DNA of 64,000 nt from Candidatus Eremiobacter antarcticus (GTDB lineage Bacteria; Vulcanimicrobiota; Vulcanimicrobiia; Eremiobacterales; Eremiobacteraceae), in assembly GCA_003244105.1 (NCBI GenBank), contig QHBK01000019.1, positions 62,001 to 126,000 of the forward strand, in the 5' to 3' direction. This document shows, one piece after another, positions 19,771-50,046 of the stretch. Both the position numbers and the translations under genes were made by a program. The notes beneath the pieces were generated by a model. It was given only the letters and a program-made list of their open reading frames with translations, had not been told where the DNA came from and searched no databases. Numbering within the stretch: position 1 is the first letter of the stretch; each line of letters opens with the position of its first letter.

Positions 19771-19784
19771 CGAACAGACGTTCG
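19771..19784. promoter_or_regulatory. LexA/DinR-type SOS box
   Basis: CGAACAGACGTTCG matches the Gram-positive SOS box (CGAAC, four bases of R-N-R-Y pattern, GTTCG) at every position. It ends 16 bases before the GTG of the small winged-helix gene and just before its GAAGGAG ribosome site. Confidence 0.72.
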
Positions 19785-35176: not shown

Positions 35177-35966
35177 GCCGGCCGGGCGAGCCGCGCTCAT
35201 CACCGGCGCGTCGAGCGGACTGGGATATGAGCTGGCGCGGCTCGCGGCGTTCGACGGATTCGACCTCGTGCTGACAGCGCGCGGCCAGCCTAAGCTGCAA
35301 GAGGTCGCAGACGAACTCATGACGGCGTGCGGAGTGCGCGTCCACGTGTTAACCAAAGATCTTTCGGACGATCGGGCAGCAGCGGAGATCCATGCAGCCA
35401 CCGAGGCCTTGGGCGTCCGCATCAGCGTGCTCATCAACAACGCGGGCTTCGCGCAGTTTGGACCGCTCGTCGACAGCGACGTTGCGGAGCTCCTGTCTCT
35501 CCTGCATACGAATATGATCGCGCTGACCTTGTTGTGCCGGCTCTATGTGCCGGGAATGGTCAAAGCCAAGGGCGGCATGATCATGAACGTCGCATCCACC
35601 GCCGCCTTCCAACCAGGTCCGTTGATGGCCGCCTACTATGCGAGCAAGGCATACGTGCTGTCGCTGTCCGAGGCGCTGCATCTCGAGTTGGAAGGTTTGG
35701 GAGTGACGGTCACGGCGCTGTGCCCCGGGCTCACGCGAACGCCTTTTTTAACGCGCGGGTCGATGGCCCGATCCGGCTTCTCGAGCAACCGGTGGGTGAT
35801 GGATGTTGCGCCCGTCGCTGCGGCCGGCTACCGGGCGATGAAAGCAGGCAAAGCCGTCTGCATTCCCGGCATTTGGAACCGCGTCTTCGGATTCGGCACC
35901 CGTTTCGTTTCGCGCTCAATCGCGGCTCGCGCGGCTCGGCGCGTGCAGGAGCGCAGGGGCGGCTAG
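35160..35966 (+). CDS. Short-chain dehydrogenase/reductase (DltE/YqjQ-like)
   Basis: 268 residues. ALITGASSGLGYELARLAA for the cofactor, LINNAGFAQFG, IMNVASTAAFQPGPLMAAYYASKAYV with catalytic Ser, Tyr and Lys, then ALCPGLTRTPF. The C-terminal half has a semi-hydrophobic helix and a basic end. Substrate unknown. TTG start, with GAGGG upstream, lies inside the last codons of rimM, which suggests translational coupling. Confidence 0.88.
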   Translation: MKSCAEPAGRAALITGASSGLGYELARLAAFDGFDLVLTARGQPKLQEVADELMTACGVRVHVLTKDLSDDRAAAEIHAATEALGVRISVLINNAGFAQFGPLVDSDVAELLSLLHTNMIALTLLCRLYVPGMVKAKGGMIMNVASTAAFQPGPLMAAYYASKAYVLSLSEALHLELEGLGVTVTALCPGLTRTPFLTRGSMARSGFSSNRWVMDVAPVAAAGYRAMKAGKAVCIPGIWNRVFGFGTRFVSRSIAARAARRVQERRGG

Positions 35967-36697
35967 AAGCGGTCCAAGAACTCAGCGATCGCCGCGTTCA
36001 CTTCCGCCGGCTTTTCCGCTTGCACGATGTGGCCCGCGCCCGGAACGATGACGAGCTTGCCGTCCGACAGATGTTGTGCCAGATACTGTGAGAATTTTGG
36101 CGGTGTCATCTCGTCGAGCTCGCCCACGAGGATGAGCGCCGGGATCTGTATCTCGCCAAGGCGATCGCGCACGTCCCAGGCGTTGCACGCCGCATAATCT
36201 CGATGGGTCGCATCCCGCCCGACGGATCGATGCCACGCCTCCGCGCGGCGCCGCAGGTCGACGGAAGCGTTTGGGCTGAGCGCGTTGTCCACCAGCGTCT
36301 CGATGCTGCCCGGCCATCCGCCGTCGATCAGTGAAAAAAGGGCGTCGGAGACACGCAGCCGTGCGCCGGTTCCGATAAGGATCAGGCCGGCGGCCTGCTC
36401 CGGAAAATCCATCGCCCACTGAAGCGCGATCGCGCCGCCCAGTGAGTTCCCGCCGACGATAATCCGTGCACCGCCTTGAGCGGCGACCTGACGTGCGAGC
36501 CAGGAGGCCAGCTCTGCGACCGACGTGAGCGCCTCGCCGTCGGGGTGTCCTGGCAACAACAGCGCTTGGGAATCCGGAAAAGCTTCCGTTTGCGCTGCGA
36601 AGCTCTCGCCGGTGTATCCGGACCCGTGCAGCCAGAGGACCCTCACGGGGGCGCCCTTCCATGCGAAATCGACGGCTCCTAGGCCAGGTGCGCACAC
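35963..36697 (-). CDS. Alpha/beta hydrolase
   Basis: 244 residues. Alpha/beta-hydrolase fold: VLWLHGSGYTGESF (oxyanion region), VGGNSLGGAIALQWA with the Ser nucleophile, LVGELDEMTPP (Asp) and VPGAGHIVQAEKP (His). It resembles small esterases of the BioH/MenH-like type; substrate unknown. No ATG lies in the plausible region; GTG 36697 is used, only ten bases from the SOS box shared with the divergent nuclease gene. Confidence 0.82.
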   Translation of the reverse strand: MCAPGLGAVDFAWKGAPVRVLWLHGSGYTGESFAAQTEAFPDSQALLLPGHPDGEALTSVAELASWLARQVAAQGGARIIVGGNSLGGAIALQWAMDFPEQAAGLILIGTGARLRVSDALFSLIDGGWPGSIETLVDNALSPNASVDLRRRAEAWHRSVGRDATHRDYAACNAWDVRDRLGEIQIPALILVGELDEMTPPKFSQYLAQHLSDGKLVIVPGAGHIVQAEKPAEVNAAIAEFLDRF

Positions 36698-36706
36698 CCG
36701 TTCGTA

Positions 36707-36720
36707 CGAACATACGTTCG
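36707..36720. promoter_or_regulatory. LexA/DinR-type SOS box in a divergent promoter
   Basis: CGAACATACGTTCG fits the Gram-positive SOS box at every position. It overlaps a second perfect palindrome, GTTCGTACGAAC (36700-36711). It lies between the hydrolase and the DnaQ/GIY-YIG nuclease gene, two bases before the first ATG of the latter. Confidence 0.75.
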
Positions 36721-36722
36721 CA

Positions 36723-38528
36723 ATGGCTATGGCGATTCCGCTTAGCTCGGCCTTTTCGTCGCCGCTCGCTCCCGTCTCGGACGCCATGCTCGCGCAAGCC
36801 GCATGCCTCGAGAGAATGTCGACGCTGGCCGCGGTCGACTTGTGGAACCTCGCGTTTTCCGTCGTCGACATCGAAACCACGGGCAGCGTCGCAGGACGAG
36901 ATGGCATCACCGAGATCGCCATCGTCGGCGTGCACGCCGGGCGGATCACGAAGCGATGGCGCACGTTTGTCGACCCGTGTCAGGCCATTCCGCGCTTCAT
37001 CTCTTCGCTGACGGGCATCACGGATGAGATGGTCGCAGGCGCTCCCCGCATCGGCGACTTGCTTCCCGCGATCGTCGAATTGATCGGCGACGATATTCTG
37101 GTGGGGCACAACGTGCGGTTCGATGCGCACTTCATCGATACAGAATTGCAAAGGCATGGCCTTGCGCCGCTGAACAGCATCACGATCGACACCCTTGCGC
37201 TGGCGCGGCGCACCATTGCAGAGGTTCCCAACTACAAGTTAGGGACGTTGACGCGCGAGCTGGGCATTGATGTCGAGCGCCATCACCGCGCGCTGGCTGA
37301 CGCGGATGCCACCGCGGCACTGCTCATCCATTGCGTGAAGCGGCTCGAAGATTGTGCGGTGTTCACGTTCGGCACGTTGCTGGATTTCTTGAAGGCGCGC
37401 GCTGTCAGCCGGCGCAAGCCGCTCGTCCGCAGACATGCACCATGCGCTGCCCAGTTGCCCGTGTGGACCTCGGTCTTGGTCGCGGAGCTGCGCGAAGTGC
37501 CGGCTCGGCCCGGTGTCTACACGCTGCGCGATGCTGCAAACGAGGTGGTCTACATCGGCAAGTCACGCAACCTGCGGCAGCGCTTGCGCGCATATGCGAC
37601 CGCGGCTAAACCTGTCGGTCCCAAGCTGAGCGCTTTGCGCGCGGTCGTCGCTTCGTTGAGCTTCACCGTCACCGGGTCTGAGCTGGAGGCGCTGCTGCTG
37701 GAAGCGGAGCTCGTCCAGACGCACAACCCTCCGTTCAACGAGCGCCTGCGCAACTTCCGCGAATTCGGCTTCATCAAGGTCGAGCCCGGACCAGCCGGCC
37801 GGCTGTTGACCACCACGTCGCTGCGCGCCGACGGCGCGCGCTATTACGGGCCGTATCGCAGCCTGGGGGCGGCGGCCGCGTCGGTGGTCGCCCTGCAAGA
37901 GGCGTTGGGACTCCAAACCGATGCGCAGCTGTATGCGGACGGGCCGGTGCCCGCCGCGCAGCGCGAGGCTCTGCTGGACGACGCCGTGGCCTTCATCGAA
38001 GGATCGGCAGACGAGGTGCTGCTGACCGTGGCGCGCCGGCGCGACGAAGCCGCGGCCCGCTGCAGGGACGAACTCGCTGCGCGCGAGGAGCAACGCCTGG
38101 AGCGGCTGCGCCGTCTGCGAGCCCGGCATGCCGAGCTCGCGTTCGCGACGGGGCTGCACGCCATCGTACTGGCCGGTTCTCCCGAGCCTTCAGAAGAGGC
38201 GTGCTTTTTGTTCTGCGCCGGCCGCCTCGTCGCCCAAGCTCGGCTGCCTCGGCGGTTGCCTGAGCGCGCTCGGGCCCACGAGCTGATGTGCCGGATGCTG
38301 ACGGAGAGTTTTCGTCCGGAGCTGGCGCCGCGCTGTTACGCCCGCCAGCAAGAGATCGACCAGCTCCATATCTTCGCGAGCTGGTACCGCGAACGCCGTG
38401 AGGCCTTGTATTACGCCCCCTTGCCCGAGCGCACGCCGGATTCGTCGGAAGCCGTCGACTGGGCGAACGCCGTTTTGGATGGCCGCCCGGTGGGGCCGCA
38501 GTCCCCGTGTTCCCACAGTTGCGCCTAA
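36723..38528 (+). CDS. DnaQ-type exonuclease fused to a UvrC-like GIY-YIG nuclease domain
   Basis: 601 residues. Residues about 40-205 are a DEDDh 3'-5' exonuclease: FSVVDIETTGS, HNVRFDAHFIDTEL, then HHRALADADATAAL. Residues about 250-340 are a GIY-YIG domain, PGVYTLRDAANEVVYIGKSR with NLRQRLRAY, as in UvrC and Cho. The remaining 260 resemble the Cho/UvrC-like region and end CSHSCA. Similar fusions occur in actinobacteria and are thought to act in excision repair. An ATG at 36786 would place the SOS box in a normal operator position and may be the true start. Confidence 0.9.
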   Translation: MAMAIPLSSAFSSPLAPVSDAMLAQAACLERMSTLAAVDLWNLAFSVVDIETTGSVAGRDGITEIAIVGVHAGRITKRWRTFVDPCQAIPRFISSLTGITDEMVAGAPRIGDLLPAIVELIGDDILVGHNVRFDAHFIDTELQRHGLAPLNSITIDTLALARRTIAEVPNYKLGTLTRELGIDVERHHRALADADATAALLIHCVKRLEDCAVFTFGTLLDFLKARAVSRRKPLVRRHAPCAAQLPVWTSVLVAELREVPARPGVYTLRDAANEVVYIGKSRNLRQRLRAYATAAKPVGPKLSALRAVVASLSFTVTGSELEALLLEAELVQTHNPPFNERLRNFREFGFIKVEPGPAGRLLTTTSLRADGARYYGPYRSLGAAAASVVALQEALGLQTDAQLYADGPVPAAQREALLDDAVAFIEGSADEVLLTVARRRDEAAARCRDELAAREEQRLERLRRLRARHAELAFATGLHAIVLAGSPEPSEEACFLFCAGRLVAQARLPRRLPERARAHELMCRMLTESFRPELAPRCYARQQEIDQLHIFASWYRERREALYYAPLPERTPDSSEAVDWANAVLDGRPVGPQSPCSHSCA

Positions 38529-45950: not shown

Positions 45951-48900
45951 TTAGGAGCAGCCCATGCTGCGGCCGCAGCTGTCGCACACGTAGCACGTGC
46001 CGTTGCGGCGCGTCAGCGATCCGCACACGTCGCACATCGGCGCGTCGCCCATGAGGGACGCCATCTGCGCCTCCCGTGAACGCAGCGCGTTGAGTTGGGC
46101 GGCCACTTGCGGGTTCGGCGGCGCAGCGGCAGCGCGGTTCTTTGCTTCAGACCCCGCGCGACCGTTGGTCTTCTTTGCGCCCACGCCTGAATTGCCGGCT
46201 TGCGGCTCCGCCGCAGCCGGCTTGGCAGAGCGCAGGTCGTCGAGCGCCTGGGCAGCGCTGACGCGCGCTTCGAAGTCCCCATGCGCGTCTTCGCCGGCGT
46301 GCGTTTGATCGACGTCTTCGTCTTCAGGCTTGATCTGCACGAAATCGGTGCGCTTGAGATACTCCATGCCGAGCACGCGGAAGATGTAATCGACGACGCT
46401 CGTGCAGTGCTTGATGTTGGGGTGATCGACGAAGCCGTTGGGCTCGAAGCGCGTGAAGATGAACTTGTCGACGAACTCCTCGAGGGGCACGCCGTACTGC
46501 AAGCCGATGGAAACGGCGATGGCAAAGCAGTTCATGAGGCTGCGGAAGGACGCGCCCTCCTTATGCATGTCGACGAAGATCTCGCCGAGCGTGCCGTCGG
46601 CGTATTCGCCCGTCCGCAAGAACAGCGTATGACCCGAGATCTTCGCCTTCTGAGTCCAACCTCGCCGCTTGGCGGGCAGCCGGTTGCGCTCGAGCGCTTG
46701 TGCGACCTTGCGCTTGAAGTCGGTGTTGGTCGCGTTCGCCAAGATGCGTTGGGCGGCAGCAAGGATCTCGTCCGGCCGCAGCTCCTCGGCCCGCTGTCGG
46801 CGTGCCTCCTCGAGCTGCCGAGCGAACTCTTCAGAAAGCGCGAGCTGTCGGTCCGAGCCTGTGTCCTTGTCCGACTTGTTCGAGAGCGGCTGCGAAAGCT
46901 TGGACCCATCTCGATACAAGGCGATCGATTTCAGTCCGAGGTCCCACGAGCGCATGTAGGCCTCTTTGATGTCGTCGACGGTAGCCTCGTTCGGAAGGTT
47001 GATCGTCTTGGACAAGGCGCCTGAGATCATGGGCTGCGCTGCGGCCATCATCCGCACGTGGCCCATGTGGTGGATGAAGCGGCGCCCTAACCGGCCGCAT
47101 TTGTTGGCGCAGTCGAAGACCGCGTAGTGCTCCTCCTTGAGATGCGGCGCGCCCTCAACAGTCATGGTGCCGCACACATAGTTCGTCGCAGCCTCGATCT
47201 CGTCGCGCGTGAAGCCGAGGTGCTTGAGCAAGTCGAAATCGGCCGCCTCGTACTGCTGCGCGCTGAAGCCCAAGCGCTGCAGCGACTCCTCCCCCAGCGT
47301 CCACTGGTTGAAGGCAAAGCTCAGGTCGAAGACGGTGGGCAGCGCCTTCTCGATTTTCGCGATGTCATCGTCGCTGAAACCCCGGGCGCGCAATGTCTCC
47401 GCGTTCACGTAAGGAGCGCCGTACAGAGAACCGGAGCCGTTGGCGTAGCGCACGATGTCGGAGATCTGCTCATTGCCATAACCCAGGTGGCGCAAGGCAA
47501 GAGGAATCGACTGGTTGATGATCTTGAAGTAGCCGCCGCCCGCGAGCTTTTTGAACTTGACGAGCGCGAAGTCGGGCTCAATGCCGGTGGTATCGCAGTC
47601 CATGAGCAGCGCAATGGTGCCAGTGGGAGCGATGCAGGTCGCTTGCGCGTTGCGATAGCCGTATCGCTCCCCCAGAGCCACGGCGCGGTCCCAACATTCG
47701 CGCGCCGCCGACAAGATATACGGCGGGCATAACCCCGCGTCGACGCCCATCGGCACGACCGAAAGGCCTTCGTACTCGGACGCAGCCGCGTTATACGCCG
47801 CGCGTCTGTGGTTGCGCATGACGCGCAGCATCGGTTCCGCGTTCTCTTTGTATCTCGAGAACGGACCCAGGTGTGACGCCATCTCAGCCGAGGCGGCGTA
47901 TGACTCGCCCGTCAGAATGGCGGAGATGGCGCCGGTCAACGCAAGCGCGCGCGGCGAATCGTACGGTATGCCGGAGACCATGAGCAGCGTGCCCAGGTTG
48001 GCGTAGCCGAGACCGAGCGTGCGATACTCATAGGACTTGCGCGCGATCTCCGGGCTGGGGAACTGCGCCATGAGCACCGAGATCTCCAACACGATCGTCC
48101 ACAGCCGGCAGGCGTGCTTGAGGCCGTCGATGTCGAGCCGGTTGTTCTCGGCGTCGTAGAACCTCATCAGGTTGATGCTGGCTAGATTGCACGCGGTGTC
48201 GTCCAAGAACATGTACTCCGAGCACGGGTTGCTGGCTCGGATGCGCCCGCCGGCCGGACACGTGTGCCATGAGTTGATGATGTCGTCGTACTGGATGCCC
48301 GGATCTGCGCACGCCCAGGCGGCCCGCGCGATCTCATCCCACAGGTCTCGCGCGCGCACGCTGCGAGCGACCGTCTTATCGCGCCGCCACAAAAGATCCC
48401 AAGAGCCGTCATTGCGCACCGCGTCGATGAACCTGTCGGGAATGCGCACGGAGTTGTTCGAGTTCTGCCCCGAGACGGTGTTGTATGCCTCGCCCTCATA
48501 GGCGCTCTCGTAGCCAGCGGCGATGAGCGCGGCCACTTTCTTCTCTTCCTCGACCTTCCAGTTGATGAACTTCTGGATATCGGGATGATCGATGTCCAAA
48601 ATCACCATCTTGGCGGCGCGCCGCGTGGTGCCGCCGCTCTTGATGGCGCCTGCGGCTCGGTCTCCGACGCGCAAGAAAGACATGAGCCCGCTGGACGAGC
48701 CGCCGCCCGACAGCTTCTCCCCTTCAGCGCGTATGTTGGAGAAATTCGAACCGCTGCCGCTCCCGAACTTGAAGATGCGCGCTTCCCGCACCCATAAATC
48801 CATGATGCCGTTGTCGTTCACGAGATCGTCTTCGACCGATTGGATGAAGCAGTTGTGCACGACCACGTTGTTGGCCAAGAAGTTGTGGCTCTCGGTCTCG

Positions 48901-49886
48901 ATGTCATAGACGAGCTGCTCGCCCAGCAGGCGCATGGACGTCACGGCGACCTCGCAGAGCGTCGGTGCGACCAGCGTGGATTGCTTCCCGCGCATCCAGC
49001 GTTGCAGCTCTTGCACCGCCGTGCCGCCGGTCGAGGTGGCGTCATCGTGCACCACGAGCGACCCCAGCAACTGCGAGACCTCGGTGTCAAAGCGGCGCAG
49101 GAGCTTCGCGCCCACTTCCAACTCATCCACTCTGCTCCAGATTTTGCCCAACACCGGATCGGAGACCAAGACTCTGTGATCGGCCGTCGCGTCGAGAAAC
49201 TTCCCGAACTCGAGCTCGATGCGCCATACCGGTTTCACGCCGTTGTTCTTCACGGCGACGATCCTCGTGGTAGCGTCCTTGTCATAGACGGTCAGACCGA
49301 TTAGGTTGCGGCTGCAGATCTCGCCGATGGGCATCGCGCCCTCAGGCGCATTGATCTGAGCGTCGCCCGGCAGGCACGCGTGCGGTTGCGGATGAGCGTA
49401 CGAGTCCGTCGCTCGCACGAGATCGACGGTGGCAGGATCGACGTAGTAGTGTCCTTGCGGCGGTCCGGTGATGCCGTACGCGTACGAAAGGCCGGTGTTG
49501 AACCACTGCGGCGAGTTCGGCGCGGCCATCTGGTGGATGAGCATGTGGCTGATCTCAGCGTCGAAGGCGGCCGCGTCGTCGTCGGAATCGAAGTAGTCGT
49601 AGCGCCGTCCCCAATCGGTCCAGCAGCCCGCCATGCGGCGTATCACCTGACGCGCCGATGTCTCCCGTCCGAGCGTTCCATCAGGTTGGGGAACGCCGGC
49701 CTTGCGGAAGTATTTCTGCGCCAAGATATCGGTGGCGACTTGCGACCACTCTTCGGGCACTTCGATGCCGCGCAGCTCGAACACGACGGTGCCGTCCGGC
49801 TCCCGAATGACGGACTCGCGCGTGCTCCAGCGCAGCTCGTCGAGGGGGTCTGTGCCTGCTTTGGTAAAGCGGCGTTGAATCTTCAT
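45951..49886 (-). CDS. nrdJ: Vitamin B12-dependent (class II) ribonucleotide reductase with intein
   Basis: 1311 residues including a 175-residue intein; about 1136 after splicing. It makes deoxyribonucleotides with adenosylcobalamin, so works with or without oxygen. Landmarks: WFNTGLSYAYGI, the extein junction at HPQPHAC-CFIQSV, IFKFGSGSGSNFSNIRA, TGQNSNNSVR-type SGQNSNNSVRIPDRF, SNPCSEYMFLDDTACNLAS, and TGTIALLMDCDTTGIEPDF. The C-terminal zinc/cysteine-rich tail reads MCDVCGSLTRRNGTCYVCDS with CGRSMGC, which carries the shuttle cysteines. ATG 49886 is preferred to an in-frame start at 49934. Two NrdR-like boxes lie upstream. Confidence 0.95.
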   Translation of the reverse strand: MKIQRRFTKAGTDPLDELRWSTRESVIREPDGTVVFELRGIEVPEEWSQVATDILAQKYFRKAGVPQPDGTLGRETSARQVIRRMAGCWTDWGRRYDYFDSDDDAAAFDAEISHMLIHQMAAPNSPQWFNTGLSYAYGITGPPQGHYYVDPATVDLVRATDSYAHPQPHACLPGDAQINAPEGAMPIGEICSRNLIGLTVYDKDATTRIVAVKNNGVKPVWRIELEFGKFLDATADHRVLVSDPVLGKIWSRVDELEVGAKLLRRFDTEVSQLLGSLVVHDDATSTGGTAVQELQRWMRGKQSTLVAPTLCEVAVTSMRLLGEQLVYDIETESHNFLANNVVVHNCFIQSVEDDLVNDNGIMDLWVREARIFKFGSGSGSNFSNIRAEGEKLSGGGSSSGLMSFLRVGDRAAGAIKSGGTTRRAAKMVILDIDHPDIQKFINWKVEEEKKVAALIAAGYESAYEGEAYNTVSGQNSNNSVRIPDRFIDAVRNDGSWDLLWRRDKTVARSVRARDLWDEIARAAWACADPGIQYDDIINSWHTCPAGGRIRASNPCSEYMFLDDTACNLASINLMRFYDAENNRLDIDGLKHACRLWTIVLEISVLMAQFPSPEIARKSYEYRTLGLGYANLGTLLMVSGIPYDSPRALALTGAISAILTGESYAASAEMASHLGPFSRYKENAEPMLRVMRNHRRAAYNAAASEYEGLSVVPMGVDAGLCPPYILSAARECWDRAVALGERYGYRNAQATCIAPTGTIALLMDCDTTGIEPDFALVKFKKLAGGGYFKIINQSIPLALRHLGYGNEQISDIVRYANGSGSLYGAPYVNAETLRARGFSDDDIAKIEKALPTVFDLSFAFNQWTLGEESLQRLGFSAQQYEAADFDLLKHLGFTRDEIEAATNYVCGTMTVEGAPHLKEEHYAVFDCANKCGRLGRRFIHHMGHVRMMAAAQPMISGALSKTINLPNEATVDDIKEAYMRSWDLGLKSIALYRDGSKLSQPLSNKSDKDTGSDRQLALSEEFARQLEEARRQRAEELRPDEILAAAQRILANATNTDFKRKVAQALERNRLPAKRRGWTQKAKISGHTLFLRTGEYADGTLGEIFVDMHKEGASFRSLMNCFAIAVSIGLQYGVPLEEFVDKFIFTRFEPNGFVDHPNIKHCTSVVDYIFRVLGMEYLKRTDFVQIKPEDEDVDQTHAGEDAHGDFEARVSAAQALDDLRSAKPAAAEPQAGNSGVGAKKTNGRAGSEAKNRAAAAPPNPQVAAQLNALRSREAQMASLMGDAPMCDVCGSLTRRNGTCYVCDSCGRSMGCS
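48852..49376 (-). other. Mini-intein in NrdJ (175 residues, no homing endonuclease)
   Basis: The intein begins at the Cys of CLPGDAQINAPEG (block A), has TADHRVLV (block B, TxxH), and ends with VYDIETESHNFLANNVVVHN (blocks F and G) followed by extein Cys. The His-Asn ending and the +1 Cys are all present, so protein splicing should work. There is no LAGLIDADG motif and no room for one. Confidence 0.93.
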
Positions 49887-49958
49887 CGATTTCTTTGGCC
49901 TTTCAACCGGCGACCGTCTGATCTGTCCGAGCACACGTACGTTCGAGCAGCGGAAGAG

Positions 49959-50032: not shown

Positions 50033-50046
50033 CGAACGCTCGTTCG
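50033..50046. promoter_or_regulatory. LexA-like palindrome in the nrdJ/amidase divergent region
   Basis: CGAACGCTCGTTCG has perfect SOS half-sites (CGAAC, GTTCG) and a four-base spacer that differs from the R-N-R-Y rule at one position. It is in the 295-base region between nrdJ and the amidase gene; apart from this and the two NrdR boxes I see no gene or RNA there. Confidence 0.45.

Follow-up and report, generated by a model that had tools for sequence, protein, structure and literature searches.

A predicted tandem LexA operator at the start of a DnaQ–GIY-YIG nuclease gene

The question raised by this locus is whether a palindrome lying between two divergent genes is the operator through which LexA controls a repair nuclease. 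The palindrome, CGAACATACGTTCG (36707-36720, no strand assigned), was found in a window (the whole stretch analysed, 64,000 nucleotides) of the genome of Candidatus Eremiobacter antarcticus, where it separates an alpha/beta hydrolase on the minus strand from a nuclease on the plus strand in which a DnaQ-family DEDDh 3'-5' exonuclease is fused to a UvrC-N-like GIY-YIG nuclease. Judged from sequence comparisons, it is very probably (about 0.88) a LexA (SOS) operator, one half of a tandem pair, that would switch on the nuclease after DNA damage.

The tandem boxes and their conservation

The LexA (DinR) SOS box of B. subtilis has the consensus GAACN4GTTC (PMC4234289). By this Bacillus-type criterion CGAACATACGTTCG, here called box 2, is an exact match, at a tandem position that is conserved, and a preceding site, box 1 (CGCACACCCGTTCG, 36691-36704, no strand assigned), has one mismatch. 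In relatives box 1 is mostly CGYACNNNNGTTCG, with a degenerate left arm that mostly reads CGYAC. With up to two mismatches tolerated in box 2, both boxes are present in eight of 13 genomes, their starts 15-18 bp apart. The second palindrome that the earlier note saw overlapping the first, GTTCGTACGAAC, is present at 36700-36711 (no strand assigned), but it consists of the right arm of box 1, the dinucleotide TA and the left arm of box 2. Its exact form is not conserved, the two arms in relatives being 1-4 nt apart or box 2 being absent. It probably arises from the tandem arrangement itself, at the junction of the two LexA boxes, and a separate site here is unlikely.

The nuclease is found in all 14 genomes of the family and in none outside it among the 101 genomes searched as relatives (E ≤ 1e-30) or the 149 of the phylum (E ≤ 1e-40). 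Thirteen family genomes, including that of the window, make up the testable set; L022 was left out, its contig carrying no upstream sequence. All 13 keep a box with one mismatch at most at the box 1 position, no more than 200 bp upstream of the conserved DLW motif, compared with 2 of the 273 control windows taken from these loci (p = 1e-20, a value that overstates the number of independent cases, as the genomes are related). In each of the 13, moreover, nuclease and hydrolase form a divergent pair with the box between them. The exact match of box 2, this conservation and the recurrence of the motif in the lexA promoter, described below, uphold the earlier claim that an SOS box fitting the LexA/DinR consensus precedes the nuclease.

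We infer that LexA binds here and that the nuclease is induced. In the undamaged cell, LexA dimers on boxes 1 and 2 would lie over the region where the nuclease gene starts and keep it from being transcribed; on DNA damage, activation of RecA would lead to self-cleavage of LexA, and the nuclease would be made.

The nuclease start codon and the divergent hydrolase

In 11 of the 13 genomes, the ATG that first follows the last box, at a distance of 0-19 nt, shares the reading frame of the nuclease; this count uses one-mismatch boxes only, which gives larger distances for L016 and L017. Where the boxes are tandem, a conserved ATG follows box 2 by 0-2 nt, and the box-adjacent codon of the window is ATG 36723. 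Because an in-frame ATG is conserved directly after the last box, we favour ATG 36723 as the putative start over ATG 36786, which the earlier note had preferred. Its position suggests that the nuclease mRNA is leaderless or has a very short leader, probably beginning at or near ATG 36723. A promoter scan of 36560-36840 found no sigma-70-like promoter. Coding DNA should show a third-position excess; in the N-terminal extension this is clear only in genus g3, where it supports translation from the box-adjacent ATG, and it is weak or absent in pairs that include the nuclease gene of the window.

It could also be that LexA controls the nuclease but that translation begins at ATG 36786 or ATG 36816 on a leadered mRNA. 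The purine-rich GAGAGA in front of ATG 36816 is consistent with this, as is the poor conservation of the N-terminal extension in the nearest relatives of the window's genome. The in-frame ATG conserved after the last box points the other way, however, and in L019 and L023 that ATG is the only in-frame ATG, GTG or TTG before the conserved core; a later start is unlikely, although it keeps some weight.

The hydrolase (35963-36646, minus strand; PF12697, E = 2.2e-18) has 227 aa when read from GTG 36646; were GTG 36697 its start instead, the gene would overlap with box 1. Throughout the testable set of 13 it is the divergent neighbour of the nuclease, identity in the 12 relatives being 47-61%, and its control by LexA is possible. 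That the locus combines a tandem LexA operator abutting the start codon, a leaderless mRNA and the hydrolase as a true second SOS target, so that the two genes would form a damage-response pair, is doubtful; no description of such a nuclease/hydrolase pair was found in the literature searched. It is improbable that LexA bound here acts chiefly on the hydrolase, or equally on both genes, rather than on the nuclease first. The constancy of the divergent pair, and the location of box 1 34-99 bp from the aligned N-terminus of the hydrolase, speak for such an action, but the last box lies far nearer the nuclease start (mostly 0-19 nt), this closeness is conserved, and the identifiable genes among the other box targets are largely concerned with repair or nucleotide supply.

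Placement of the motif, lexA and other genes with boxes

The genome encodes one LexA (TIGR00498, E = 1.6e-70, above the cut-off), with a DNA-binding HTH domain (PF01726) and an S24 peptidase domain (PF00717). Its promoter contains the boxes CGAACGTATGTTTG and CGAACATGCGTTTG, 59 bp apart. Every one of the 14 family genomes has a pair of matching boxes before lexA, with a spacing of about 60 bp, and boxes of the GAACN4GTTY type lie upstream of the lexA genes read from other families of the class. The presence of the motif in the promoter of the genome's own lexA agrees with the earlier proposal of a LexA motif of the Gram-positive (Bacillus) kind.

In the 64-kb window CGAACN4GTTCG occurs three times, compared with 0.17 expected from shuffles, whereas the shorter core GAACN4GTTC, also with three occurrences against 1.07 expected, is near chance. 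Across the genome (2.64 Mb) there is no raw enrichment, CGAACN4GTTCG having nine sites and its reversed control pattern 17, nor is the refined motif CRAACRNNYGTTYG enriched, with ten sites against eight for the reversed control. Taken alone, the raw genome frequency would not have supported the earlier claim, and genome-wide enrichment was dropped as proof of a LexA site, the counts not rising above the reversed control. Placement distinguishes the two patterns: all ten refined sites are intergenic, as against one of the eight control sites (Fisher p ~2.5e-4), by calls made by eye from open frames in which, at the nuclease site, the extensions of both neighbours' frames across the box were discounted. 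Seven of the eight control sites are covered by long open frames. It is placement and conservation, not frequency, that carry the case for a LexA site.

The ten CRAACRNNYGTTYG sites, a list that is not independent of the motif since the latter was derived partly from the lexA-promoter sites, belong to lexA (two), imuA, a YoaA/DinG-type helicase, nrdJ, the DnaQ–GIY-YIG nuclease, the gap after ku, and three less clear genes. An exact box precedes imuA in 13/13 loci read, and in most of these promoters it lies between TTGNCA-like (-35-like) and TATACT-like (-10-like) elements, identified by eye; the space between -35 and -10 is the classical position for a repressor. At nrdJ all 13 loci read likewise have a box, with one mismatch at most. 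In the window this is the exact box CGAACGCTCGTTCG (50033-50046), and in most relatives a further site, often a weaker one, lies closer to nrdJ. The helicase has an exact box in eight of 13 loci, and a variant in one more. Comparison of these loci establishes the motif, shows it to be conserved, and shows that the nuclease shares it with lexA, imuA, nrdJ and the YoaA/DinG-type helicase. That the palindrome is the site of another regulator, or a chance match, is very improbable, for although the 14-bp motif is no commoner genome-wide than its reversed control pattern and about one GAACN4GTTC is expected by chance per 64 kb here, the same motif stands before lexA in every family genome, and also before imuA, nrdJ and the helicase, and the box before the nuclease is conserved throughout the testable set.

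The helicase box adjoins the helicase ATG by 0-1 nt in L093, L096, L098 and L099, as at the nuclease. Another exact box, CGAACAGACGTTCG (window positions 19771-19784), separates ku from a small gene; further on, a gene for a LigD primase-polymerase lies on the other strand. At L004:1501-1514 a box is flanked by TTGACA and an element resembling ATAAAAT, and 13 nt after the box comes the ATG of a gene for 168 aa that has no Pfam or NCBIfam match. The nrdJ gene, for a class II ribonucleotide reductase (window 45951-49934, minus strand), gives a match to the intein-splicing domain PF14890, and its alignment has a gap or jump at this region in several family relatives. As for recA, usually a core SOS gene, the upstream stretch read in the window's genome (locus L092) has no LexA box; its membership of the regulon there is not supported, its sole near match, with one mismatch, being inside the recA coding sequence.

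The nuclease and its relation to known SOS systems

From the favoured ATG the nuclease has 601 aa (36723-38528, plus strand), with PF00929 (E = 1e-31) followed by PF01541 (E = 4.9e-7). Its active-site motifs are invariant across the 13 family genomes aligned, and we take their residues to have the catalytic roles of the DEDDh and GIY-YIG motifs. Relatives of solved structure match the two halves separately, as PolC, DinG and DnaQ exonucleases and as the UvrC N-terminal domain. The match to TIGR00194 (UvrC) is limited to positions 2-140 of 574, no UvrC C-terminal Pfam domain is reported in the nuclease, and a full-length UvrC is encoded separately elsewhere in the genome. The protein would couple a 3'-5' exonuclease of the proofreading type with the kind of nuclease domain that UvrC uses for 3' incision. 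Its probable role, on the model of E. coli Cho, is that of an auxiliary excision nuclease induced in the SOS response, which would act beside the ordinary UvrC.

The wiring predicted here is an ordinary SOS operator of known type, and the host group is new for it as far as a limited search of open-licence literature goes, in which no SOS regulon described for this bacterial group was found. For this group the analysis supplies a LexA motif and a core set of SOS genes. It also places the DnaQ–GIY-YIG fusion nuclease, whose related NCBI family is named by domain only, in the SOS response, a direct and testable prediction. No report of LexA control of such a nuclease in other bacteria was found in the open-licence literature, where work on Streptomyces LexA and on UV tolerance in Curtobacterium is not decisive.

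Compared with the Bacillus-type LexA (DinR) box, the palindrome and its spacing are the same here, in the lexA promoter as well, whereas the nuclease operator is often a tandem pair set directly against a start codon, and the copy of it that is kept in more genomes has a degenerate left arm. That SOS transcripts can be leaderless has a precedent in M. tuberculosis lexA, in which the start codon is at the transcription start (PMC2897130), although this is a different gene and a single case. The nuclease itself has the same domain order as the PRK07883 'DEDD exonuclease domain-containing protein' (NF005906 and its siblings), and nearly the whole model is aligned (NF005906, E = 3.6e-108), but it scores 362.3 bits against a curated cut-off of 495; it is a relative of this family, not filed as a member. 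In E. coli, LexA regulates cho but not uvrC (PMC3820734). Like Cho, the protein encoded here has a UvrC-N/GIY-YIG nuclease with no UvrC C-terminal half detected, is predicted to be under LexA control, and has a normal UvrC alongside; unlike Cho, it is fused to a DnaQ-type exonuclease and associated with a different class of SOS box, and its incision activity is a prediction by analogy.
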